Assembly (NCBI RefSeq): GCF_965363235.1 | Contig: NC_134841.1 | Span: forward strand, 60,781,078 to 60,845,077 | Direction: 5' to 3' | Source: Mytilus galloprovincialis | Taxonomy: Eukaryota > Mollusca > Bivalvia > Mytilida > Mytilidae | Length of the DNA: 64,000 nt | Part shown: positions 4,199 through 63,363 of the stretch, piece by piece | Position numbering within the stretch: position 1 is the stretch's first letter | Layout: each line of letters starts with the position of its first letter | Position numbers and translations under genes: made by a program | Notes under the pieces: model-generated | Seen by the model: only the letters and a program-made list of their open reading frames with translations | What the model was told of the DNA's origin: nothing | The model's database searches: none

Positions 4199-4276
4199 AT
4201 GGATGAGCCCAGATGAAAGTTCAGTCCTGACACCTACAGGCAGACGATTTCATTTTAGTTGCCAGATAATGATGAT
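4199..4276 (+). other. Exon-like segment, copy 1
   Basis: A 78-nt segment between TGTATTACAG and GTAAGT. A 77-nt copy with the same splice sites lies at 14446-14522. All three frames are poor, and an indel between the copies shifts the frame, so it is more likely non-coding or UTR. Confidence 0.45.
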
Positions 4277-7279: not shown

Positions 7280-8044
7280 CTGAGCTAAAAAAGTTTAGCA
7301 ACAAAAATATGAAATTTTATTACAAAATGATAATAAAAAAATGAAATTATGACATGTCAGAAGCAACATGAATGTTTAACACTCATATTCATTAGGATAT
7401 TTTTTGTATGGAGCACGGGAGGGTCAAAATGCGGAAATGAGTATAGTGTTATTCAAAATCAATTCCTCTGCCATGTTCTAAGTTCTAAGGATTGGCAGGA
7501 ACACCAGCAGCTACCCTTAGTCAATGCACTACTCTTGTGGCCAGAAAAAACTTACCACATGTTGACGATTGTTGTTTTTGGTCTACAGTGTATCGACCTA
7601 TCCTGTGTTGTTGCAATTTGTTAATTTCTGTTTGCTAGTCCCTAAACTTTTGACTTATGCACTTAAAATCGAGCCACGACGTCAGCAACACTCATGCCGG
7701 CATCAACCATTCCAAGAGCCATCTGACCGTCATTTTCCGAGAGGCATGGTTGACGCTTCATGCAATTTTTTCAAACTTTTATGTGTTTTTCTTACCAATG
7801 GTGTGTTTCTGAACGTGTGTGCAAAAAAAAATAAAATTTTGTTTTAAAAGTACAGGTACAGAAAGTGAAACATCAATTACATGTGCAAGGCTGAAATGGC
7901 ACGAAATCAATCACCTGGCAAAAAGTACGACTGTTTAAAATTTCAGGTAAAACTAAGGATTATATCAATGATGTTTAATAAAAAAAAAAACAGAAACAAC
8001 AAATAACAATGAAAAAAAAGTGTTGCTAAACTTTTTTGGCTCAG
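7280..8044 (-). mobile_element. Non-autonomous Tc1/mariner-type element with degenerate transposase relic
   Basis: Terminal inverted repeats of about 25 bp (CTGAGCTAAAAAAGTTTAGC against GCTAAACTTTTTTGGCTCAG), flanked by TA on both sides (7278-7279, 8045-8046), the target duplication of the Tc1/mariner superfamily. On the minus strand at about 7731-7667 a frame reads MALGMVDAGMSVADVVARF and is then stopped. This is the N-terminal helix-turn-helix of a Tc1-type transposase. The catalytic DDE part is missing. The plus-strand frames at 7349-7624 and 7569-7847 lie over this relic and are not genes. Confidence 0.8.
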
Positions 8045-8104: not shown

Positions 8105-8221
8105 ATATTTCTTTTTTTTTTTTCTTTTTTTTTTTTATCTATTTCCATTTTCTATAGGTCACTTTAAAGAATTACAAGTGAGGTATGGTTATCTATTTCA
8201 TTTTATGTTTTCGGTGGCGTC

Positions 8222-11200
8222 CAGGATCAGACAGCAGGTAATTTTTGATAGGATTGTGTGCATGTTTGTATGCCTTTTTGTCCAAGTTTCCTCTAGGTGC
8301 CGTGAAAGGATCCAACAGAAAGGTATGTTAAGATAAGATTGTGTGCATGTTTGTATGCCTTTTTGTCCAAGTTTCCTCTAGGTGCTGTCAAAGGATCCTA
8401 CGGAAAGGTATGTTAAGATGAGATTGTGTGTTTGTATGCATTTTTGTCCAAATTTCCTCTAGGTGGCGTCAAAGGATCCAACGGAAAGGTATGTTAAGAT
8501 AAGATTGTGTGTTTGTATGCATTTTTGTCCAAATTTCCTCTAGGTGGCGTCAAAGGATCCAAGGGAAAGGTATGTTAAGATAAGATTGTGTGTTTGTATG
8601 CATTTTTGTCCAAATTTCCTCTAGGTGGTGTCAAAGGATCCAAGGGAAAGGTATGTTAAGATAAGATTGTGTGTTTGTATGCATTTTTGTCCAAATTTCC
8701 TCTAGGTGCCGTCAAAGGATCCAAGGGAAAGGTATGTTAAGATAAGATTGTGTGTTTGTATGCATTTTTGTCCAAATTTCCTCTAGGTGGCGTCAAAGGA
8801 TCCAACGGAAAGGTATGTTAAGATAAGATTGTGTGTTTGTATGCATTTTTGTCCAAATTTCCTCTAGGTGCCGTCAAAGGATCCAACGGAAAGGTATGTT
8901 AAGATAAGATTGTGTGTTTGTATGCATTTTTGTCCAAATTTCCTCTAGGTGCCGTCAAAGGATCTAACGGAAAGGTATGTTAAGATAAGATTGTGTGTTT
9001 GTATGCATTTTCTTCCAAATTTCCTCTAGGTGGTGTCAAAGGATCCAAGGGAAAGGTATGTTAAGATAAGATTGTGTGTTTGTATGCATTTTTGTCCAAA
9101 TTTCCTCTAGGTGGCGTCAAAGGATCCAACGGAAAGGTATGTTAAGATAAGATTGTGTGTTTGTATGCATTTTTGTCCAAATTTCCTCTAGGTGGCGTCA
9201 AAGGATCCAACGGAAAGGTATGTTAAGATAAGATTGTGTGTTTGTATGCATTTTTGTCCAAATTTCCTCTAGGTGCCGTCAAAGGATCAAAGGGAAAGGT
9301 ATGTTAAGATAAGATTGTGTGTTTGTATGCATTTTTGTCCAAATTTCCTCTAGGTGGCGTCAAAGGATCCAACGGAAAGGTATGTTAAGATAAGATTTTG
9401 TGTTTGTATGCATTTTTGTCCAAGTTTCCCCTAGGTGGCGTCAAAGGATCCAAGGGAAAGGTATGTTAAGATAAGATTGTGTGTTTGTATTCATTTTTGT
9501 CCAAATTTCCTCTAGGTGGCGTCAAAGGATCCAAGGGAAAGGTATGTTAAGATAAGATTGTGTGTTTGTATGCATTTTTGTCCAAATTTCCTCTAGGTGG
9601 CGTCAAAGGATTCAACGGAAAGGTATGTTAAGATAAGATTGTGTGTTTGTATGCATTTTTGTCCAAATTTCGTCTAGGTGGCGTCAAAGGATCCAAGGGA
9701 AAGGTATGTTAAGATAAGATTGTGTGTTTGTATGCATTTTTGTCCAAGTTTCTTTTAGGTGCCGTCAAAGGATCCAACGGAAAGGTATGTTAAGATAAGA
9801 TTGTGTGTTTGTATGCATTTTCGTCCAAATTTCCTCTAGGTGGTGTCAAAGGATCCAAGGGAAAGGTATGTTAAGATAAGATTGTGTGTTGTATGCAATT
9901 TTGTCCAAATTTCCTCTAGGTGCCGTCAAAGGATCCAACGGAAAGGTATGTTAAGATAAGATTGTGTGTTTGTATGCATTTTTGTCCAAATTTCCTCTAG
10001 GTGGCGTCAAAGGATCCAACGGAAAGGTATGTTAAGATAAGATTGTGTGTTTGTATGCATTTTTGTCCAAATTTCCTCTAGGTGGCGTCAAAGGATCCAA
10101 GGGAAAGGTATGTTAAGATAAGATTGTGTGTTTGTATGCATTTTTGTCCAAATTTCCTCTAGGTGGCGTCAAAGGATCCAAGGGAAAGGTATGTTAAGAT
10201 AAGATTGTGTGTTTGTATGCATTTTCTTCCAAATTTCCTCTAGGTGGCGTCAAAGGATCCAACGGAAAGGTATGTTAAGATAAGATTGTGTGTTTGTATG
10301 CATTTTTGTCCAAATTTCCTCTAGGTGGCATCAAAGGATCCAAGGGAAAGGTATGTTAAGATAAGATTGTGTGTTTGTATGCATTTTTGTCCAAGTTTCC
10401 TCTAGGTGCTGTCAAAGGATCCAACGGAAAGGTATGTTAAGATAAGATTGTGTGTTTGTATGCATTTTTGTCCAAATTTCCTCTAGGTGCTGTCAAAGGA
10501 TCCAAGGGAAAGGTATGTTAAGATAAGATTGTGTGTTTGTATGCATTTTTGTCCAAATTTCCTCTAGGTGGCGTCAAAGGATCCAAGGGAAAGGTATGTT
10601 AAGATAAGATTGTGTGTTTGTATGCATTTTTGTCCAAATTTCCTCTAGGTGGCGCCAAAGGATTCAACGGAAAGGTATGTTAAGATAAGATCGTGTGTTT
10701 GTATGCATTTTTGTCCAAATTTCCTCTAGGTGGCGTCAAAGGATCCAAGGGAAAGGTATGTTAAGATAAGATTGTGTGTTTGTATGCATTTTTGTCCAAG
10801 TTTCCTTTAGGTGCCGTCAACGGATCCAACGGAAAGGTATGTTAAGATAAGATTGTGTGTTTGTATGCATTTTCTTCCAAATTTCCTCTAGGTGGTGTCA
10901 AAGGATCCAAGGGAAAGGTATGTTAAGATAAGATTGTGTGTTGTATGCATTTTTGTCCAAATTTCCTCTAGGTGCCGTCAAAGGATCCAACGGAAAGGTA
11001 TGTTAAGATAAGATTGTGTGTTTGTATGCATTTTTGTCCAAATTTCCTCTAGGTGGCGTCAAAGGATCCAACGGAAAGGTATGTTAAGATAAGATTGTGT
11101 GTTTGTATGCATTTTTGTCCAAATTTCCTCTAGGTGGCGTCAAAGGATCCAACGGAAAGGTATGTTAAGATAAGATTGTGTGTTTGTATGCATTTTTGTC

Positions 11201-14200
11201 CAAATTTCCTCTAGGTGGCGTCAAAGGATCCAAGGGAAAGGTATGTTAAGATAAGATTGTGTGTTTGTATGCATTTTTGTCCAAATTTGCTCTAGGTGCC
11301 GTCAAAGGATCCAAGGGAAAGGTATGTTAAGATAAGATTGTGTGTTTGTATGCATTTTTGTCCAAATTTCCTCTAGGTGGCGTCAAAGGATCCAACGGAA
11401 AGGTATGTTAAGATAAGATTGTGTGTTTGTATGCATTTTTGTCCAAATTTCCTCTAGGTGGCGTCAAAGGATCCAAGGGAAAGGTATGTTAAGATAAGAT
11501 TGTGTGTTTGTATGCATTTTTGTCCAAATTTCCTCTCGGTGGCGTCAAAGGATCCAAGGGAAAGGTATGTTAAGATAAGATTGTGTGTTTGTATGCATTT
11601 TTGTCCAAATTTCCTCTAGGTGGCGTCAAAGTATTCAACGGAAAGGTATGTTAAGATAAGATTGTGTGTTTGTATGCATTTTTGTCCAAATTTCCTCTAG
11701 GTGGCGTCAAAGGATCCAAGGGAAAGGTATGTTAAGATAAGATTGTGTGTTTGTATGCATTTTTGTCCAAGTTTCTTTTAGGTGCCGTCAAAGGATCCAA
11801 CGGAAAGGTATGTTAAGATAAGATTGTGTGTTTGTATGCATTTTCGTCCAAATTTCCTCTAGGTGGTGTCAAAGGATCCAAGGGAAAGGTATGTTAAGAT
11901 AAGATTGTGTGTTGTATGCATTTTTGTCCAAATTTCCTCTAGGTGCCGTCAAAGGATCCAACTGAAAGGTATGTTAAGATAAGATTGTGTGTTTGTATGC
12001 ATTTTTGTCCAAATTTCCTCTAGGTGGCGTCAAAGGATCCAACGGAAAGGTATGTTAAGATAAGATTGTGTGTTTGTATGCATTTTTGTCCAAATTTCCT
12101 CTAGGTGGTGTCAAAGGATCCAAGGGAAAGGTATGTTAAGATAAGATTGTGTGTTTGTATGCATTTTTGTCCAAATTTCCTCTAGGTGGCGTCAAAGGAT
12201 CCAAGGGAAAGGTATGTTAAGATAAGATTGTGTGTTTGTATGCATTTTCTTCCAAATTTCCTCTAGGTGGCGTCAAAGGATCCAACGGAAAGGTATGTTA
12301 AGATAAGATTGTGTGTTTGTATGCATTTTTGTCCAAATTTCCTCTAGGTGGCATCAAAGGATCCAAGGGAAAGGTATGTTAAGATAAGATTGTGTATTTG
12401 TATGCATTTTTGTCCAAGTTTCCTCTAGGTGCTGTCAAAGGATCCAACGGAAAGGTATGTTAAGATAAGATTGTGTGTTTGTATGCATTTTTGTCCAAAT
12501 TTCCTCTAGGTGGCGTCAAAGGATCCAAGGGAAAGGTATGTTAAGATAAGATTGTGTGTTTGTATGAATTTTTGTCCAAATTTCCTCTAGGTGGCGTCAA
12601 AGGATCCAAGGGAAAGGTATGTTAAGATAAGATTGTGTGTTTGTATGCATTTTTGTCCAAATTTCCTCTAGGTGGCGTCAAAGGATTCAAACGAAAGGTA
12701 TGTTAAGATAAGATTGTGTGTTTGTATGCATTTTTGTCCAAATTTCCTCTAGGTGGCGTCAAAGGATCCAAGGGAAAGGTATGTTAAGATAAGATTGTGT
12801 GTTTGTATGCATTTTTGTCCAAGTTTCCTTTAGGTGCCGTCAAAGGATCCAACGGAAAGGTATGTTAAGATAAGATTGTGTGTTTGTATGCATTTTCTTC
12901 CAAATTTCCTCTAGGTGGTGTCAAAGGATCCAAGGGAAAGGTATGTTAAGATAAGATTGTGTGTTGTATGCATTTTTGTCCAAATATCCTCTAGGTGCCG
13001 TCAAAGGATCCAACGGAAAGGTATGTTAAGATAAGATTGTGTGTTTGTATGCATTTTTGTCCAAATTTCCTCTAGGTGGCGTCAAAGGATCCAACGGAAA
13101 GGTATGTTAAGATAAGATTGTGTGTTTGTATGCATTTTTGTCCAAATTTCCTCTAGGTGGCGTCAAAGGATCCAACGGAAAGGTATGTTAAGATAAGATT
13201 GTGTGTTTGTATGCATTTTTGTCCAAATTTCCTCTAGGTGGTGTCAAAGGATCCAAGGGAAAGGTATGTTAAGATAAGATTGTGTGTTTGTATGCATTTT
13301 TGTCCAAATTTCCTCTAGGTGGCGTCAAAGGATCCAAGGGAAAGGTATGTTAAGATAAGATTGTGTGTTGTATGCATTTTTGTCCAAATTTCCTCTAGGT
13401 GCCGTCAAAGGATCCAACGGAAAGGTATGTTAAGATAAGATTGTGTGTTTGTATGCATTTTTGTCCAAATTTCCTCTAGGTGGCGTCAAAGGATCCAACG
13501 GAAAGGTATGTTAAGATAAGATTGTGTGTTTGTATGCATTTTTGTCCAAATTTCCTCTAGGTGGCGTCAAAGGATCCAACGGAAAGGTATGTTAAGATAA
13601 GATTGTGTGTTTGTATGCATTTTTGTCCAAATTTCCTCTAGGTGGTGTCAAAGGATCCAAGGGAAAGGTATGTTAAGATAAGATTGTGTGTTTGTATGCA
13701 TTTTTGTCCAAATTTCCTCTAGGTGGCGTCAAAGGATCCAAGGGAAAGGTATGTTAAGATAAGATTGTGTGTTTGTATGCATTTTCTTCCAAATTTCCTC
13801 TAGGTGGCGTCAAAGGATCCAACGGAAAGGTATGTTAAGATAAGATTGTGTGTTTGTATGCATTTTTGTCCAAATTTCCTCTAGGTGGCATCAAAGGATC
13901 CAAGGGAAAGGTATGCTAAGATAAGATTGTGTGTTTGTATGCATTTTTGTCCAAGTTATCTCTAGGTGCTGTCAAAGGATCCAACGGAAAGGTATGTTAA
14001 GATAAGATTGTGTGTTTGTATGCATTTTTGTCCAAATTTCCTCTAGGTGGCGTCAAAGGATCCAACGGAAAGGTATGTTAAGATAAGATTGTGTGTTTGT
14101 ATGCATTTTTGTCCAAATTTCCTCTAGGTGGTGTCAAAAGATCGGACGGACAGGTATGTTAAGATAAGATTGTGTGTTTGTATGCATTTTTGTCCAAATT

Positions 14201-14300
14201 TCCTCTAGGTGGCGTCAAAGGATCAGACAGCAGGTATGTTAAGATAAGATTGTGTGTTTGTATGCTTTTTTCTCCAAATTTCCTCTAGGTGGCGTCCAGG
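8222..14300 (+). repeat. 81-bp minisatellite, about 74 units, each with splice-site-like signals
   Basis: The unit runs from GTATGTTAAG to the next GTATGTTAAG and is 81 bp: a 55-nt intron-like part (GTATGTTAAG ... TTTCCTCTAG) and a 26-nt exon-like part (GTGGCGTCAAAGGATCC...). The first full-register donor is at 8323 and the last at 14233; the second unit is 85 bp. Units with one T missing (80 bp) recur near 9886, 10938, 11909, 12961 and 13365. This reveals a higher-order period of 12-13 units (971 or 1052 bp). Both edge units carry GATCAGACAGCAG in place of GATCCAACGGAAAG. No long frame crosses the array. Every unit has a BamHI-like GGATCC or a near variant. Confidence 0.97.
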
Positions 14301-14332
14301 ATGGTGTTTTTTTCTTTCTTTTTTCTATAGGT
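14301..14332 (+). repeat. Direct repeat flanking the minisatellite, right copy
   Basis: ATGGTGTTTTTTTCTTTC then TTTTTCTATAGG. It pairs with 8073-8104. Confidence 0.6.
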
Positions 14333-14445
14333 GAATGGTGTTTTTTCCCGGTTGACAGGTTGTCCACAAGGTTAAGTATATATTTTTTTTCAATTGACTA
14401 ACAGTTGACTCATAAATATTAAGATGATTTAAGTTTGTATTACAG

Positions 14446-14522
14446 ATGGATGAGCACAGATGAAAGTTCAGTTCTACACCTGGAGGAAGATGGTTTCATT
14501 TTAGTTACCAGATAATGATGAT
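14446..14522 (+). other. Exon-like segment, copy 2
   Basis: Shares TGTATTACAG acceptor, ATGGATGAGC start, CCAGATAATGATGATG end and GTAAGT donor with 4199-4276. About 80 bp of upstream sequence also match, so a block including intron was duplicated. Confidence 0.45.
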
Positions 14523-14989
14523 GTAAGTATTTGGTCATAACAATTGTATTTAAACTATTTAAAAAAAAATTTAGGTAATAGAAATCAGTTTTCCTTTGAA
14601 AGTCTACTTGAAATTTTATTACAAAATTGTCGTTAATTTCTTGTTCAAATTTATTCTCTAATGAAATATAATTCTAAAAGAATTATTGTATTTGTAAATA
14701 GGCTGATCCCCCCAATTTAGGATTTGAAATAAAACCGGCATCACATTAATTTCTAATTTAATTATTACAAAAAATAGACTTAATATTGACAATTTGGATA
14801 TTTATTTACATATTTATTTACATTTTAATTGGGGAAAATATGACTTTGTTTAGGTTGTTTGTTCAAAATGTATACATCAGATTGTTTTGGTTAGCCACCA
14901 CATTCTGATAATTTATCTACATACATTAATTTCAGAATTAATGATGTGATCATAATAAACAGTCTTCATAATACTGATTAAAAGATAAA

Positions 14990-15340
14990 ATGAAAATGGT
15001 TAATGAATTACAGGCAAAAAGAGCAAAGACACAGAAAATTGTGCCATTGACACAGATCTGGATAAGAAGCTTAAAGGAAGGTCCCAAGTTTCAGTCGAGA
15101 TGGCAGATGAGTAGCAACTCCATGGAAGATGTTTACTTAGATCTTCAACCAAGTCCGAGGCTTTGCCATGTAAGCAATCAAGCAGCAAGGATAGCAGCTG
15201 GAATGAAGATTAATTATTACATTGATCTTCAAACAAGTCTGAGGCTTTGTCATGAAAGAAATAATGCAAGTATATTCAAGCCAATTAGTTCTGTACATTA
15301 TCAGGAAAAATGTGATAAAATCTATAAGGATTACCTATAA
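14990..15340 (+). other. Repeated open frame, copy 1 (116 codons), function unknown
   Basis: Contains FQSRWQMSSNSMEDVY and an internal 28-codon duplication (DLQPSPRLCHV and DLQTSLRLCHE). The stop follows YKDYL. The frame recurs in copies 2 and 3 and is broken near its end in copy 4. A GTAAGC donor in the middle (after LCH) suggests that it may be spliced rather than read through. No family recognised. May be non-coding. Confidence 0.3.
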
Positions 15341-15635
15341 GGCAACACACATTTTTGTTATTTTGCACATTTACAACAAACAAAAATAGATGTTTATTAG
15401 TTTGATAAATGTTTTTCCGGTAGAAGTATAAAATTTTATATCATTAAAAGTAAATCCTGATAGAACTTTTCACTTCAAGGGAGACTAGTACAATAAACAG
15501 CAAGAATGTTTCTTTCGGTGGGAGATAACTCACTATTAAGCAATCAGAATACAGAATAGATTAATGAAAATTTAGGCTGGCAATTTAACAAATTTGTAAA
15601 ATATATAATTTGTGTCAATTTTAATTCCTTTTTAG

Positions 15636-15704
15636 GTTATAAAACAGTGCCAATGTTTTCATGAAGGGGAGTAAGACTTGTGGTATAAGATATCTTAAAT
15701 ACAA
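15636..15704 (+). other. 69-nt exon-like segment, copy 1 of 4
   Basis: Bounded by CCTTTTTAG and GTAAGTATAT, both close to consensus. The segment starts GTTATAAAACAGTGCC. Its copies lie near 16635, 17636 and 18633 with the same sites. All three frames contain stops. Confidence 0.5.
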
Positions 15705-15972
15705 GTAAGTATATAATTCCTCTATTTAAACAAATTTTATCATCATAAAACAAGTTTACAGGATAAAAACGTGCACTAGGCTTAAAGTTGAAAGAGGTCA
15801 AATGGTTTTTTGTTGTTGACTAAAGGTTCTAAAATTTTGAATTGATCACACTGAATTCATTGTAAAGATTTGTATGCAGGCTTTGGCTAAACCACAAAAT
15901 GAAGTACCAACAAAATTACAATTGTTCACCAAATAAGACGCTGAAAATGGCCCCGTTGATGCAGGTCAGGAT

Positions 15973-16335
15973 ATGAAGCTTGAAGGAATATATGTCTATT
16001 TCATTTATATTAACCAACAGAAGTCTTATCAATATAATTTATTGATAATTTTAGTTTTTGTTCAAGAAGCTGGCCAGTCCAAGTTTCAGTCCAGATGGCA
16101 GATGAGTAGCAACTCCAATGAAGATGATTACTTAAATCTTCAACCAAGTCCGAGGCTTTGCCATGTAAGCAATCAAGCAGCAAGGATAGCAGCTGGAATG
16201 AAGATTAATAATTACATTGATCTTCAAACAAGTCTGAGGCTTTGTCATGAAAGAAATAATGCAAGTATATTTAAGCCAATTAATTCTGTACATTATCAGG
16301 AAAAATGTGATAAAGTCTATAAGGAATATCTGTAA
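15973..16335 (+). other. Repeated open frame, copy 2 (120 codons), function unknown
   Basis: Ends SVHYQEKCDKVYKEYL. From FQSRWQMSSNS on it is nearly identical to copy 1. The first 35 or so codons lie in the intron-like insertion and are probably not real protein. Confidence 0.25.
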
Positions 16336-16634
16336 GGCAACACATATTTTTGTTATTTTGCACATTTACAACACACAAAAATAGATATTTATCAGTTTGA
16401 TAAATGTTTTTCTGGTACACGAATAAAATTTTATACCATGAAAAGTAAATCCTAATAGAATTTTTACTTCAAGGGAGACTAGTACAATAAACAGCAAGAA
16501 TGTTTCTTTCATGGGGAGATAACTCACCTCACTATTACACAATCAGAATACAGAATAGATTAATGAAAATTTAGGCTGGCAATTTAACAAATTTGTAAAA
16601 TATATAATTTGTGTCAATTTTTATTCCTTTTTAG

Positions 16635-16703
16635 GTTATAAAACAGTGCCAATGTTTTCATGAAGGGGAGTAAGACTTGTGGTATAAGATATCTTAAATA
16701 CAA
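16635..16703 (+). other. 69-nt exon-like segment, copy 2 of 4
   Basis: Same splice-like borders as 15636-15704. Position good to a base or two. Confidence 0.45.
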
Positions 16704-17041
16704 GTAAGTATATAATTCCTCTATTAAAACAAATTTTATCGTCATAAAACAAGTTTACAGGATAAAAACGTGCACCAGGCTTAAAGTTGAAAGAGGTCAT
16801 ATGGTTTTTTGTTGTTGACTAAAGGTTCTAAAATTTTAAATTGATCACACTGATGTTATTGTAAAGACTTGTATGCAGGCTTTAACTAAACCATGGAATG
16901 AAGTACCAACAAAATTACAATTGTTCACCAAATAAGACGCTGAAAATGGCCCCGTTGATGTAGGTCAGGATATGAAGCTTGAAGGAATATATGTCTATTT
17001 CATTTATATTAACCAACAGAAGTCTTATAAATATAATTTAA

Positions 17042-17335
17042 TTGATAATTTTAGTTTTTGTTCAAGAAGCCGGCCAGTCCAAGTTTCAGTCCAGATGGCA
17101 GATGAGTAGCAACTCCATGGAAGATGTTTACTTAAATCTTCAACCAAGTCTGAGGCTTTGCCATGTAAGCAATCAAGCAGCAAGGATAGCAGCTGGAATG
17201 AAGATTAATAATTACATTGATCTTCAAACAAGTCTGAGGCTTTGTCATGAAAGAAATAATGCAAGTATATTTAAGCCAATTAATTCTGTACATTATCAGG
17301 AAAAATGTGATAAAGCCTATAAGGAATATCTGTAA
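17042..17335 (+). other. Repeated open frame, copy 3 (97 codons), function unknown
   Basis: Differs from copy 2 by a handful of codons (for example PSLRLCH for PSPRLCH, CDKAYKEYL for CDKVYKEYL). The changes are mostly amino-acid changing, which does not favour coding constraint. Confidence 0.25.
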
Positions 17336-17635
17336 GGCAACACACATTTTTTGTTATTTTGCACATTTACAACACACAAAAATAGATATTTATCAGTTTG
17401 ATAAATGTTTTTCTGGTACACGAATAAAATTTTATACCATGAAAAGTAAATCCTAATAGAATTTTTACTTCAAGGGAGACTAGTACAATAAACAGCAAGA
17501 ATGTTTCTTTCATGGGGAGATAACTCACCTCACTATTACACAATCAGAATACAGAATAGATTAATGAAAATTTAGGCTGGCAATTTAACAAATTTGTAAA
17601 ATATATAATTTGTGTCAATTTTAATTCCTTTTTAG

Positions 17636-17704
17636 GTAATAAAACAGTGCCAATGTTTTCATGAAGGGGAGTAAGACTTGTGGTATAAGATATCTTAAAT
17701 ACAA
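17636..17704 (+). other. 69-nt exon-like segment, copy 3 of 4
   Basis: Same borders; it starts GTAATAAAAC in place of GTTATAAAAC. Position good to a base or two. Confidence 0.45.
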
Positions 17705-18044
17705 GTAAGTATATAATTCCTCTATTTAAACAAATTTTATCATCATAAAACAAGTTTACAGGATGAAAACGTGCGCACTAGGCTTAAAGTTGAAAGAGGT
17801 CAAATGGTTTTTTGTTGTTGACTAAAGGTTCTAAAATTTTGAATTGATCACACTGAATTCATTGTAAAGATTTGTATGCAGGCTTTGGCTAAACCATGGA
17901 ATGAAGTACCAACAAAATTACAATTGTTCACCAAATAAGACGCTGAAAATGGCCCCGCTGATGTAGGTCAGGATATGAAGCTTGAAGGAATATATGTCTA
18001 TTTCATTTATATTAACCAACAGAAGTCTTATAAATATAATTTAA

Positions 18045-18401
18045 TTGATAATTTTAGTTTTTGTTCAAGAAGCCGGCCAGTCCAAGTTTCAGTCCAGATG
18101 GCAGATGAGTAGCAACTCCATGGAAGATGTTTACTTAAATCTTCAACCAAGTCCAAGGCTTTGCCATGTAAGCAATCAAGCAGCAAGGATAGCAGCTGGA
18201 ATGAAGATTAATAATTACATTGATCTTCAAACAAGTCTGAGGCTTTGTCATGAAAGAAATAATGCAAGTATATTTAAGCCAATTAATTCTGTACATTATC
18301 AGGAAAAATGTGATAAGTCTATAAGGAATATCTGTAAGGCAACACACATTTTTGTTATTTTGCACATTTACAACACACAAAATAGATATGTATCAGTTTG
18401 A
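18045..18401 (+). other. Repeated open frame, copy 4, frame-shifted end
   Basis: Same as copies 2-3 up to YQEKCDK. A one-base loss then changes the frame and the frame ends in unrelated sequence at 18401. The loss is tolerated, which again speaks against a coding role. Confidence 0.25.
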
Positions 18402-18632
18402 TAAATGTTTGTCTGGTACACAAATAAAATTTTTTACCATGAAAAGTAAATCCAAATAGAATTTTTACTTCAAGGGAGACTAGTACAATAAACAGCAAGA
18501 ATGTTTCTTTCATCAGGAGATAACTCATTATTACGCAGTCAGAATACAGAATAGATTAATAAAAATTTAGGCTGGCAATTTAACAAATTTGTCAAATATA
18601 TATAATTTGTGTCAATTTTAATTCCATTTTAG

Positions 18633-18701
18633 GTTATAAAACAGTGCCAATGTTTTCATGAAGGGAAGTAAGACTTGTGGTATAAGATATCTTAAATACA
18701 A
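18633..18701 (+). other. 69-nt exon-like segment, copy 4 of 4
   Basis: Same borders, with a CCATTTTAG acceptor. Position good to a base or two. Confidence 0.45.
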
Positions 18702-18894
18702 GTAAGTATATAATTCCTCTATTTAAACAAATTTTATCATACTGTCAATAAAAAGAAACAGTCAGCTATCACTGGGCTTGAAAACTTTTGGTCAGTAGTT
18801 TTAATGTTTAATTTATTAGTACCGGTAATTGCAAATCATTTTTGCTATGTCAACTCCAACTAGATAAGAGATCTTTGTCTGGTTTTAATGGTAT

Positions 18895-19015
18895 TTTCAT
18901 AGGCGGATCCAAAGGGAATCACTGAAGCTTGACTGGAACGCCCCCCCCCCCCCCCTTAGGTCAGTCAGTTGGCCCCCCTCCCCCTTTATGAAAAGTTCTG
19001 GATCCGCCACTGGTT
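18895..19015. repeat. Short GGCGGATCC...GGATCCGCC element
   Basis: Starts AGGCGGATCCAAAGGG and ends TGGATCCGCCACTGG with a C-run inside. The same family as 51384-51546 and part of 33095-33205. Confidence 0.6.
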
Positions 19016-19195
19016 TTGTAGATAAGTTAGTGTACAGGTCATATATGTCAAAATGTCATTCACGCAAAATCTCCCCCTAAGGTGTCAAGGCTGACAGGGA
19101 TTCTCACTCTTTGAGGTTTCAGATGTTGGAAAGTATGTAGTATTTGTTAGTGTTGTTGGGATGTTGTCACATTGTGTTCTCTGCATCTTCTTTTA

Positions 19196-19590
19196 CCTTA
19201 AGGAAGCTTGCTTGTCATGTTTTTGAATTTTGGTCAGATTTTCAGAATCCTCTAGTTTTATCCATTTGAATGCATTAACAAATTAAGCCTGGTGACCCCA
19301 TTTTTCTTTTTATAATTCATTTACATGTATGATGATAAGCTGTCTGTTAAAATCTTACAAAATTTTAATTACTTTTAAATAGTTTTTGAGGACTTTAACT
19401 TGTAAATGATAAAAAGTCAAGAGAGAACATTTTCCCGCCAAAATTTCAATGGCTTAGATATCTCGAAAACAAGTAAGATGACCTATATATTTTTTTGCTT
19501 TTGATTCCTTTATTAATCCCCTATCAATATATATGCTAGTGTTTTGAAAAGTTAATTATTTTGAAACTGAGAAGCCAACTCCCTTAAAAT
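19196..19590. repeat. Dispersed repeat of about 380 bp, copy A
   Basis: CTTAAGGAAGCTTGCTTGTC ... GAAACTGAGAAGCCAACTCC. A second diverged copy lies at 24549-24920 with the same start and end. The ends form only a very short inverted pair (TTAAGGAAG / CTCCCTTAA). Confidence 0.7.
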
Positions 19591-19689
19591 GTTGTATATC
19601 TATTTTTATATATAATGTACATATAAATTAGTATACCAACAGTGATTCCTTTTTTACTATTTTCAATGACTAAGCATTTTATTTTTCAG

Positions 19690-19754
19690 GTTAGCATTCC
19701 AGCTTGTACTTACAGATTGATGTTGGAAATGGCTATTAGAGTTGACTTTTAAAA
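19690..19754 (+). other. 65-nt exon-like segment downstream of the tandem units
   Basis: TTTATTTTTCAG acceptor and AAAA/GTAAGA donor. One frame is open for 20 codons and stops just before the donor. Probably a further exon of the same locus. Confidence 0.45.
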
Positions 19755-19998
19755 GTAAGAAAGAACTATTTTATAGATTTATAAAATTTTCTATTTAAGA
19801 TCATGTAAATTCCCATGTGATTTGTACAATCTTTTTACAATTTAATATTTTCTGGAATGACCTGTCAAGTTTTAGGAAGGGAAAAATTATTATGAAAAAG
19901 TCTCTCTGCTTTAATTGTTATTTCCCAGTTTGCTATTTTTTGCCTATTTCAGTTTCTTAAAATATGACAGAAAATTGAAAAGTGTATTTCTTTTTCAG

Positions 19999-20300
19999 AT
20001 AACAATTACTGTGGCTGAAGGATATAATAGTGTGATTAATTCTCCATACTCCTTAGAGATGTTGTGAAGGTTCTTAACATGTTGACAGTTGGGGACTCTC
20101 TCTTCACAAGACATCGGATTTAACATCCCCATTCTGACACTGGACATGGCTTCCAATTTGTACTACCAAACAGATGCCTTACTTTTGCAAGGATTTTACT
20201 GCCAGTCTGAAGAAGACCAAGAGTGACCAGGGTCTTTCTAACTCTACTGAACAGTTTCCAATATGAACGATTCATAATAAATCTTGCATAAACAAGAGAA
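19999..20300 (+). other. Candidate terminal exon with poly(A) signal
   Basis: A TTCTTTTTCAG acceptor is followed by about 280 nt with more mixed base composition than its surroundings, then AATAAA at about 20275. It has stops in all frames (the longest 5' frame has 22 codons). Fits the 3' end of a spliced non-coding RNA. Needs transcript evidence. Confidence 0.4.
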
Positions 20301-21035
20301 AGAATGTAGTTGATAAATTCTAAAATAATTAATGTAAAGATTCTCCATTTTCAACAAGAGTGGAAGTTTTAATTAAGGTTAATGTATTGTTTCAATTTTC
20401 ACTCAACTTTCTTTTTCTTTCTACCATTAAATGCTATCAATTTTTATTATTGTGGCTCAACAGATAAAATGTTTCTAAAGTTTAAATATTTACATTGGTT
20501 AAGAATGGAGAATCTAAAAATAACAAAAATATTGTAAATAATTTAAGTATGGCAATGGTTTTGTATGGAAATCAAAAATATTATTGTCAAAATTGGTGTA
20601 ATGATATATTCAAAAGATTACATGTAGCAATATGTAAGTTATCCTTATTTACTACCAGTCAGACATTTCTTGACTAAATATCAAGCCTATTGCTACAGGT
20701 ACTCGACTCCATTGTAATTGATCATAAGTTTAACATTTTCAAGGGGAGGTAATGCACCTGTTTAATGCCTCATACTAGAAGTTTCTTTAGTGCACAGTTT
20801 ACCAATATAACTAAGACATTCTCTTCTGTGATTTGAGCAGTACCAGAGTACTGGAACTGTTTTACAAAGCATCGGCCATTAAAATTTTCATGCATTGAGT
20901 TATGCTAGGCATCTTTGGCCGAATTTTTGACAAATCCAAAAAAACAGGAGAATATTGATGAAACACCTTACTTTCAGGGAATGGAAAATAATATAGTTTC
21001 TGTAAAACAATAATTTGTGTACTATATGTACTTAA
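20301..21035. other. No gene or element recognised
   Basis: AT-rich unique-looking sequence. The 60-codon frame at 20495-20677 has no recognisable motif. Confidence 0.5.
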
Positions 21036-39800: not shown

Positions 39801-42800
39801 AAATACAGTTGACTCAAGTTATGTTAAAACAGCAAAAGAGTTTTAATATTTCAAGTCAACTGACATCTGAATCAAGAAAAGCTTATGCAAAAAGCAATCA
39901 AGGGGAGAAAACTCAAAGGAGTAGGGGCATTAAGGCCTGGTTTTGGCCCAAGAAAATAAAATGTTTGATAACTTTCTCAAATTGGCACAAAATGTTTAGA
40001 AATGCATAGGGTCAAGAAATATCAATGAAAAAACATCAAAATTGTTATGTGATGACGTCACAATTACGTCATAATATGTACTGTTTTCACAAAAATGATG
40101 AAAAATACAGAATTTATGCAGTTTTCTATCTTTAATTCTGTTGTGGAAACATTGTGCGCAGCCAAGAAACAACAAAATAATTTAACAGAAGCTTTATTAT
40201 AACTATTGACAAAATCTCACTAAATATAAAGTTGTTTCTTGGGTGCGCACATACTTTTTCAATCTAAAATATACTTAAAAATTTGATGAAAAACAAAGAA
40301 AATCTCGAAATTTTACAAAATATGCAAATTAAGTCATAATTTGTTGCCATGGTAACTTGTTCAATGTCCAAAATTGTTTTGTTTTTCTGAATACCTTGTA
40401 CCATAGATAATGTACAATAATTAAAAAATATGTATGATAACTTTTAAATTTGCTGTAATTTTTGGGCCAAATAAGGGCCTGATTGCCCCTACTCCTTTGC
40501 AAAAGATAATACCAGAATTGTGTATCCTGTTGATCTAGTCATACTTCATTACTTTGTACTAGTGAACATCAATTTGATAACTGTTTTTCATTTGAGGCAG
40601 TGGTTTGGTTTTCTGTAGTTTTTAAATACTGTAAACCAACTTATTTTCGCGGATACTTTATTTCCTGTTTTACCAATTCTAGTCCATTTCGCGCCTTTTA
40701 AAATTCGCAATTTTCTTATTTACTTGATGTAGATTAATAACGATTTATATTCGCGTTATTTTTCTCCTCGCGAAAGTCGCAAAAATAAATCGCTCACGAA
40801 AATAAGTTGGTTTACATTACTGTATTGTTTTAATAATGCTGCTGCTGCTTTAAAACAAAAACAATATGATGTTTGTTTGAATAGGTCTCTTTCTTTCTGA
40901 CCCATTCTTTACAATACTGTTCAAATACTTTATTAATATATGTAAAAGTTTTACCTTTAGAAGACCAACATTAGCAAAAGATCCCTTGCCAGTCTTCACA
41001 GGTTTGTCCAACACTACACCCTCTCTGTACTGGCAATTGTTGTCTGCTCTCATGTGATGGGGACTATCAAGGGGGTTCAAAATGCCTGAGATAAAATAAA
41101 AATTTGTCATGACAAACTTAACATTAATTGCTTTGGTTTTGATAACACACTCAAAGAGATATTTTAATCTACATCAAATGTGAATGAACAAGTGAAACTG
41201 CGAGCTACTGCTCACTGATGATACCCCCGCCGCAAGTGGATAATATTAATAGTGTAAAAATATGCAAGTGTTCGGTAAACAGGAAGTTGTCGAGTGATGA
41301 ATCTGAAAACGCATCACACGGTATAGCTGACTTATAAAAATCCTGAAACCAAATTTCAGAAATCCTTGTATTGTAGTTCCTGAGAAAAATGTGACGAAAA
41401 TTTTTAACTTGGTTATCATGTGTAAAATCATACAAGTGTTCAGTAAACAGGAAGTAGTCCAGTGATGAATCTGAAAACGCATCACACGGTATAGCTGACT
41501 TATATAAATCCTGAAACCAAATTTCAGAAATCCTTGTATTGTAGTTCCTGAGAAAAATGTGACGAAAATTTTCAACTTGGCTATCATGTGTAAAATCATA
41601 CAAGTGTTCGGTAAACAGGAAGTTGTCGATTGATGAATCTGAAAACGCATCACACGGTATAGCTGACTTATATAAATCCTGAAACCAAATTTCAGAAATC
41701 CTTGTATTGTAGTTCCTGAGAAAAATGTGACGAAAATTTTCAACTTGGCTATCATGTGTAAAATCAGACAAGTGTTCGGTAAACAGGAAGTTGTCAAGTG
41801 ATGAATCTGAAAACGCATCACACGGTATGGCTGACATATATAAATGTTGATACCAAATTACAGAAAGGGTGGATGTGTAGTTCCTGAGAAAAATGTGACG
41901 AAAGTTTCATGGGACGGACTGACTGACTGACTGACGGACGGACTGATGGACGGACGGACGGTACGACAGACAGAGGTAAAACAGTATACCCCCCCTTTTG
42001 ACAGACAGAGGTAAAACAGTATACCCCCCCTTTTTTAAAGCGGGGGTATAAATATTACTTTGTAAGTACATGTGTACCAGCATATAAAATTGGTTCATGT
42101 TGGTTCCTTGTCACCTTGCAGCGTTGAGCAACAAGAGAAAAGAATGGTGTTAGCATCTGAATTGGCAAGTAATACCCTAGTATTTGCTGCCGGAAGTTCA
42201 GCTCCATCAAATTCACCATGACCTACATTTCTTAGGATAAATGACTTGTTTAAACAGTAGTTATCTGTTGTCATGTGCACTTATACTCACCACGCTACAT
42301 CTTGTATATGTGTAAATACATGAAAGAATCATTATAAAAATACAATAGAAATAAAAAACAGAACTTTGATCCATAAAATACAAAATGTACCTGCATACTG
42401 TAAATCTTTGTGTTGTGGGAAGAATGATTTTCTGAGATACTGTGGACATTCCAAGTACTGTAAAATTCTGGCCATTTGAACATTAGCATGACCTTTCTTT
42501 CCAACTCCTTGATAATCTCCTTCCACACTCCTGTGAATAAAAGAAATAAAATCTAAAACTATCAATCGTTAAACTGTTTGAGGAATAATTATTGTCTTTT
42601 TATAACTACTGAAGGCTACCCGGTAATCTGAAACTGGTTTCCAGACTCCACCGTCGCTATATCAGACGTTTAACACACCCTTGAATTGGTATCATTGTGT
42701 TTATACTGCCTGAGACAATATGCATTGTAAGGCTGATAGAAATCCCATTAGATAAAATAATTTATGGCCTGATCTTTGTGTATAGTCAGAACTATACAAA

Positions 42801-56840: not shown

Positions 56841-57351
56841 TTTTTATTTATACTCTTTTTCAACAGTCATATATTGTTCTTAAGTAAATAAATGGAACAA
56901 GGATATAGAGTCAATTGGAATTGTATGTCTACTTCAAATATGGATTACGAAACTCACATGCAATATACAAATGTACATTGTTACCTGAATTTTATTATAT
57001 ACAACATATTACCGGTATATATAAATCAATTTCTTGTGTAATGTTTAGCAAATAACAAATGATTGTGAATTTAATTGTTATGCTTAAAGCCATAGAGTTA
57101 AGCCAATTAGCCTGATTACTGTCGAAATAGTGTTGAGAGGCAAAAACAATTTAATGGAATGAATTTTTGATGGATAGTCGGACTAAATCAATGAAGAAAG
57201 TAATTATTGGATGTATATCATGTAGATATAGATATATACCAATATTGATAAAGTCATTGACACACATATAAATAGAATTAAATTTAACCTGAATCAATAG
57301 TTGAGGGAGTCACAGATAAGTAAAAAGAAATTAATTTATTACAGATAAACG

Positions 57352-63363
<6,012 letters not shown>

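Follow-up and report, generated by a model that had tools for sequence, protein, structure and literature searches.

An array of 81-bp splice-bordered cassettes

The window analysed here is a 64,000-bp stretch of contig C4 (C4:60781078-60845077) in the 1.385-Gb Mytilus galloprovincialis genome, which comprises 331 contigs. Tandem Repeats Finder detected in it an 81-bp period with 74.5 copies and 95% matches (Table 1), and cutting at the exon-like 26-mer yielded 74 cassettes spanning positions 8297-14233, the last of them starting at 14209, with 73 spacings of 81 (67), 80 (five) or 85 bp (one). The original prediction of a 74-unit, 81-bp array was thus confirmed by both approaches, and its division of the unit into a 55-nt intron-like and a 26-nt exon-like part describes the prevailing form in the window, but not the 25-nt cassettes that also occur or those of 27 nt in other loci. 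Under strict annotation, all 74 intron-like parts start with GT and 73 end in AG, the single loss being a CTCTCG that ends at 11538, in line with the prediction that splice-like sites persist in nearly all units and that one near 11536 lacks the AG. Donors were scored by pairing with the 5′ end of U1 RNA and acceptors by a simple pyrimidine score; 2.3% of 3237 background GT sites equalled or bettered the cassette donor, and 2.6% of 2974 AG sites the cassette acceptor. By these home-made scores, a donor and acceptor this strong and 45-65 nt apart were present in only 5/4000 (plus strand) and 3/4000 (minus strand) random 81-mers drawn from the window outside the array and joined head to tail, so the array borders are unlikely to be there by chance.

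By its short unit repeated head to tail, and by a copy number and composition that change through turnover within it, the array qualifies as a minisatellite. Spacings of 80 bp recur in the window, ending at 9920, 10972, 11943 and 12995, with gaps of 1052, 971 and 1052 bp between them, and we infer that this higher-order period of 12-13 units is a trace of unequal exchange within arrays.

Table 1. Features of the window in and around the cassette array.
Feature	Position	Strand	Remarks
Segment duplicated along C4, with repeats interrupting	2104-28700	+	Extent of the matches seen
Exon-like block C, upstream copy	4199-4276	+	
Insertion with inverted ends	7280-8044	.	Within collinear pieces common to the window and the loci at 58.33, 62.81 and 40.08 Mb
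25-nt micro-exon-like block	8158-8182	+	Borders CTATAG...GTGAG then GTATGG
24-nt relative of the array cassette	8214-8237	+	At the array 5′ edge
Tandem array of 81-bp units: 74 cassettes with 26-nt exon-like and 55-nt intron-like parts	8263-14296	+	Tandem Repeats Finder, cutting at the 26-mer, strict annotation
Exon-like block C, downstream copy	14446-14522	+	Borders TTACAG...GAT then GTAAGT
Exon-like block D, 116-codon ORF	14990-15340	+	Some relatives carry stops or frameshifts
~1-kb tandem repeat, 4 copies	15084-18740	+	Holds blocks D and E
Exon-like block F	19690-19754	+	

Exon-like blocks around the array

The exon-like segments that had been predicted on the same strand on both sides of the array, at 4199, 14446, 15636 and 19690, do exist. 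Those at 4199 and 14446 are copies of one block (86% alike over ~190 bp), and that at 15636 is one of four in the ~1-kb repeat, where block E starts, by eye, at 15636, 16635, 17636 and 18633. A further acceptor lies 3′ of block F, after which an exon would begin at 19999; within this last exon-like region, positions 20055-20240 match a dispersed repeat on many other contigs with 72-77% identity. The insertion upstream of the array is one that, by eye, we take to resemble a mariner-type element.

A 93-residue open frame of block D (window 14990-18401) had 79 matches, all on C4. Many block D copies are stop-free and others have stops or frameshifts, and differences at codon positions 1, 2 and 3 numbered 89, 109 and 141, respectively, when 31 distinct copies were compared with one reference. 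With stops or frameshifts in several copies, the case for block D as a conserved coding exon is weak at best. Two block D copies, the block C peptide and the peptide of an apparent first exon at 57.4 kb (see below) gave no Pfam match at E up to 1, and no Rfam family matched window positions 1-24000 at gathering score. The observed/expected CpG ratio at 14296-20500 was 0.23, the lowest of eight window stretches, which would fit, if indirectly, germline methylation of a transcribed body.

Related segments along one contig

Searches with the block downstream of the array and with the 3′ blocks found the same 19 related places on C4, at 6.63, 12.36, 38.19, 40.08, 49.41, 50.32, 50.94, 51.43, 52.16, 58.33, 59.09, 60.27, 60.79 (the window), 61.30, 62.81, 67.50, 69.84, 74.53 and 80.63 Mb, nine in forward and ten in reverse orientation. 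Array units were seen at 18 of these loci, that at 59.09 Mb having none among the matches listed. The 81-mer had 1237 matches in the genome and an 86-bp relative 1172, all on C4 among the matches listed; likewise, the exact 22-mer GGTATGTTAAGATAAGATTGTG occurred 1016 times (500 forward, 516 reverse), with none on earlier contigs and all on C4 among the matches listed. Outside C4 we found a single block C copy at C9:68.56 Mb, where the 1.5 kb 3′ of it showed no array, and at C7:80.21 Mb a divergent version of part of the 3′ half, with matches of 64-81% identity and no array intron-like stretch within the 7.2 kb read.

In the loci at 58.33, 62.81 and 40.08 Mb (18-20 kb read of each), the main pieces collinear with the window are 90-97% identical and run from ~2.1 kb (58.33 Mb) to 20.5 kb of the window, with many further matches of 72-89% between repeats; pieces at window 24.0-24.5 and 28.1-28.7 kb match most other C4 places in step, amid dispersed repeats. 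The 1.5 kb downstream of the array has more than 90% identity in 13 of 16 other loci, and 85-89% in those at 50.94, 12.36 and 50.32 Mb. Non-tandem blocks that exceed 1 kb and 90% identity are by definition segmental duplications, and the C4 segments qualify as such. Four loci whose arrays were read completely have 74, 72, 77 and 72 units; coordinates give an estimated 36-94 units in 15 loci, and the shortest array, at 50.32 Mb, has 32 intron-like parts.

A transposon carrying tandem repeats could also account for arrays in dispersed segments whose flanks are shared, and for the one block C copy on C9. In the Pacific oyster, Helentrons are reported to carry satellite-like repeats throughout the genome (PMC7492417); there too, short tandem arrays sit in scattered segments of a bivalve genome, but a mobile element has spread them genome-wide. 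Here, all 19 segments are on a single one of at least 14 large contigs, the shared segment exceeds 20 kb, and three open frames compared with Pfam matched no family above cut-off. We therefore consider a transposon highly improbable as the source of the arrays.

Coding potential of the cassettes

Each frame of the 81-bp unit contains a stop on either strand, which excludes coding by read-through. Of 17 loci, 14 have 26 nt as their commonest cassette length, two have 25 and one has 27, so that each cassette mostly shifts the reading frame. When cassettes were joined, all frames were stopped in five of seven loci (three of the seven arrays being read in part), with one to four stops per frame at 58.33, 62.81 and 40.08 Mb, one or two in the part of 6.63 Mb read, and four to six in 15 cassettes at 50.32 Mb. 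The joined window cassettes, by contrast, can be read through without a stop in two of the three frames, over 631-632 codons, and at 60.27 Mb all three are open over the 16 cassettes read. Such open frames would be expected if the cassettes were micro-exons that together encode a repetitive protein, diversified by exon skipping, but the frame-shifting cassette length and the stops in the other five loci speak against it, as does the joined translation, which gave only Pfam matches below cut-offs; we regard this reading as scarcely credible. Schistosome micro-exon genes, which encode secreted proteins, have many very short exons that keep the frame, with lengths in multiples of three. The C4 cassettes resemble them in having very short exon-like parts in a row, but are mostly not multiples of three in length and do not keep one frame.

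Elsewhere in the window, a 168-bp tandem repeat at 41205-41837 is open on its minus strand for 210 codons; this ORF too had only Pfam matches below cut-offs.

Comparison of the cassettes with working introns

From 17 loci we sampled 522 exon-like and 540 intron-like parts, after dropping three overlapping stretches from an initial 581 units. GT was intact in 535 of the 540 intron-like parts and AG likewise in 535 (summed by hand), as expected of functional introns, although with the filter used (at most 3/15 donor and 5/13 acceptor mismatches) badly broken units may be missed. These dinucleotides were nevertheless not kept better than other pairs of positions in the intron-like part (variant-state sum 12, permutation p 0.22). 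Moreover, a branch-point-like YTNAY motif 15-50 nt from the 3′ end was found in only 25 of the 540 and was absent from the remaining 515, compared to 64% of 5000 random 55-mers from the window; four of five flanking acceptors, checked in the same way, have one. Since animal branch points are degenerate, this shortage weakens the case for working introns without ending it. A length of 55 nt is also very short for an animal intron.

Thus, the original prediction that 74 intron and micro-exon cassettes might be spliced in many ways, or trap spliceosomes, finds little support in the sequence, given the ordinary conservation of GT and AG, the scarcity of YTNAY and the loss of frame in five of seven loci. 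The evidence instead favours the fallback it offered, a minisatellite that captured an exon border. Nor do the cassettes correspond to introners, near-identical introns inserted into unrelated genes: here the exon-like part is repeated as well and the loci share their flanks.

The 5′ edge of the array and sister arrays

At the 5′ edge of the array, the loci at 58.33 and 40.08 Mb both have TTTTAG, a 24-nt relative of the cassette and a CAG|GTAAGT donor, whose U1 pairing is equalled or beaten by 0.03% of the 3237 background GT sites. In the window the AG of this edge block is lost (TTTTCG), and the locus at 62.81 Mb is without the block. Because the edge block has this perfect donor in two copies, a true exon border probably seeded the arrays.

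A separate array at C4:74043057-74055380, read in part (74044001-74045900), consists of ~130-bp units with a 25-nt splice-bordered cassette closely related to the micro-exon-like block at 8158-8182 of the window. The complete list of matches to this micro-exon pattern in the whole 1.385-Gb genome, at up to two mismatches, has 55 entries, all on C4. Further along, C4:71597004-71613595 holds more than 16 kb of ~92-bp repeats with an 80-85% match to the ~130-bp unit; no place in them fits the splice-bordered pattern at up to two mismatches, so that any cassette there is putative. Since the 25-nt cassette was amplified on its own at 74.04 Mb, units made up of an exon and the start of its intron appear to have been amplified at least twice in these C4 repeats.

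At 57345-57655 of the window, there is an apparent first coding exon in which a tandem repeat of 128 bp (2.1 copies) takes in the 3′ part and the start of the intron; this may be a recent case of exon-border duplication like that proposed for the arrays.

Variation of exon-like and intron-like parts

In all 20 array stretches compared, which come from 17 loci, variability is lower in the intron-like than in the exon-like part (ratios of 1.1 to 5.6), and this holds for 19 of 20 once CpG sites are excluded. The exon-like part also has more variant states (p 0.0025; p 0.030 without CpG sites), and among the 81 26-nt blocks into which the unit can be rotated it ranks first in variability by two measures, tying with five others by a third. 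Within base classes, the excess loses significance (p 0.084, 0.19 and 0.15), and much of the contrast is therefore base composition.

Using the flanks, base by base, as the yardstick for the 17 locus consensuses, in which a majority rule hides rare changes, we found summed between-locus diversity over the 81 bp to agree with expectation (5.01 versus 4.91). The exon-like consensus is also in line with it, at 8 variable sites against 10.1 expected, and the intron-like one has 6 against 15.2 (p 0.0026), its summed diversity not being low (p 0.15). The first 31 nt of the intron-like part have 1 variable site versus 8.0 expected (p 0.001, the 31-nt cut being post hoc), a constancy that exchange between arrays would yield equally well. 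TTAAGATAAGATTGTG is identical in all 17 consensuses, and at 50.32 Mb divergence is strong in the exon-like part and almost nil in the intron-like part. Among the flanking blocks, block C varies at 7.0% versus 5.3% in the following intron, and block F at 6.6% versus 6.5% (28.3% in the preceding intron, where alignment is poor and the value probably inflated); blocks D and E vary at 4.7% and 8.8%, the stretch between them at 11.2% and the intron after E at 12.1%. Constraint on a flanking transcript thus appears weak and patchy, not absent, because blocks C and F vary like the introns that follow them and D and E less than their neighbours.

This pattern is what a working non-coding gene family would show if its many short introns were under selection, for cassette splicing or for binding of splicing factors, with the exon-like part left to drift. 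The consistently lower variability of the intron-like part, its almost fixed first 31 nt, the one-sided divergence at 50.32 Mb, the strong donor and acceptor and the restraint on blocks D and E all point that way. The YTNAY motif is nevertheless out of place in most intron-like parts, the splice dinucleotides are not specially kept, the contrast is not significant within base classes and the introns would be very short, so that we judge selection on the introns unlikely, if worth entertaining.

The conserved part might instead be a DNA or RNA binding motif, with splice-like ends that are incidental, and the loci might serve to mark or organise C4. It holds AGATAAGA, which we take to be GATA-like, and both the invariance of TTAAGATAAGATTGTG and the confinement of all 55 micro-exon pattern matches to C4 are in keeping with such a role. 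Intrachromosomal segmental duplication also gives confinement to C4, however, and an origin from an exon is favoured by the splice-like ends and by the perfect donor that marks the edge of the array; such a putative binding role is accordingly quite improbable. In a broader version of these ideas, about 19 C4 transcription units and the sister arrays, with ~1,200 intron-like cassettes in which selection keeps the 5′ part and the exon-like part drifts, would jointly mark or regulate C4 through binding of splicing factors or other RNA or DNA binding, which we consider very improbable.

A probable exon-containing minisatellite in chromosome-specific duplications

We find it probable, from the sequence comparisons above, that the array is a minisatellite which contains an exon, travels with a segmental duplication specific to one chromosome and, if transcribed, is spliced over as one long intron. 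One short exon and the start of its intron would have been tandemly duplicated and have grown into an internal minisatellite within a coding or non-coding transcription unit, which today is probably either decayed or non-coding. Duplication of the entire segment (more than 20 kb, array included) would then have placed about 19 copies along one chromosome, in both orientations, after which the arrays would have turned over by unequal exchange and changed in length. Were the locus transcribed, the array would most likely sit within one long intron, or be used occasionally through skipped, scattered sites. The splice-like borders would persist because each duplicated unit holds both, not because each is used. 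Several observations count against this minisatellite origin: short arrays are missing from the fully read loci, where the minimum is 32 units, the first 31 nt of the intron-like part are nearly constant, block D is stop-free in many copies and it and block E vary less than their neighbours, and the exon-like part has more variant states than the intron-like part.

Parallels are found in several known systems. The NBPF/Olduvai genes and human core duplicons have tandem exon-intron cassettes in duplications that stay on one chromosome; the C4 loci are alike in their tandem exon-intron-like cassettes in one-chromosome duplications, but the NBPF cassettes are coding and far longer. A similar event, on a smaller scale, is reported for human segmental duplications in which minisatellites overlap and change exon borders, with ~30-bp units and four copies on average, 70.4% of the duplications concerned being on the same chromosome (PMC2812944). 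Both involve minisatellite expansion at exon borders in recently duplicated genes, whereas here the unit is of 81 bp, the copies number ~32-94 and a whole micro-exon-like block with both its borders is repeated. The long non-coding RNA FIRRE (PMC4820808) has local repeats in exons and introns, with RNA and DNA functions; it is similar as a locus of many repeated units, some of them exonic (exon-like here), but it is a single locus on the X chromosome, its repeats are larger and spaced, and its transcripts are proven. Among open-access papers, we found no account of an array like the present one in titles and abstract openings.

Exon-bearing minisatellites in segmental duplications are thus known already, and what is extreme here is that dozens of whole splice-bordered cassettes occur at about 19 places on one chromosome, with none seen elsewhere among the matches listed. 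The array offers a natural test of a spliceosome faced with 74 equivalent sites in a row, and bears on how tandem exon amplification begins and spreads, and on the reasons for which segmental duplications may remain confined to a single chromosome. Should the constancy seen at the 5′ end of the intron-like segments prove real, it would suggest that introns, and not exons, are under selection.
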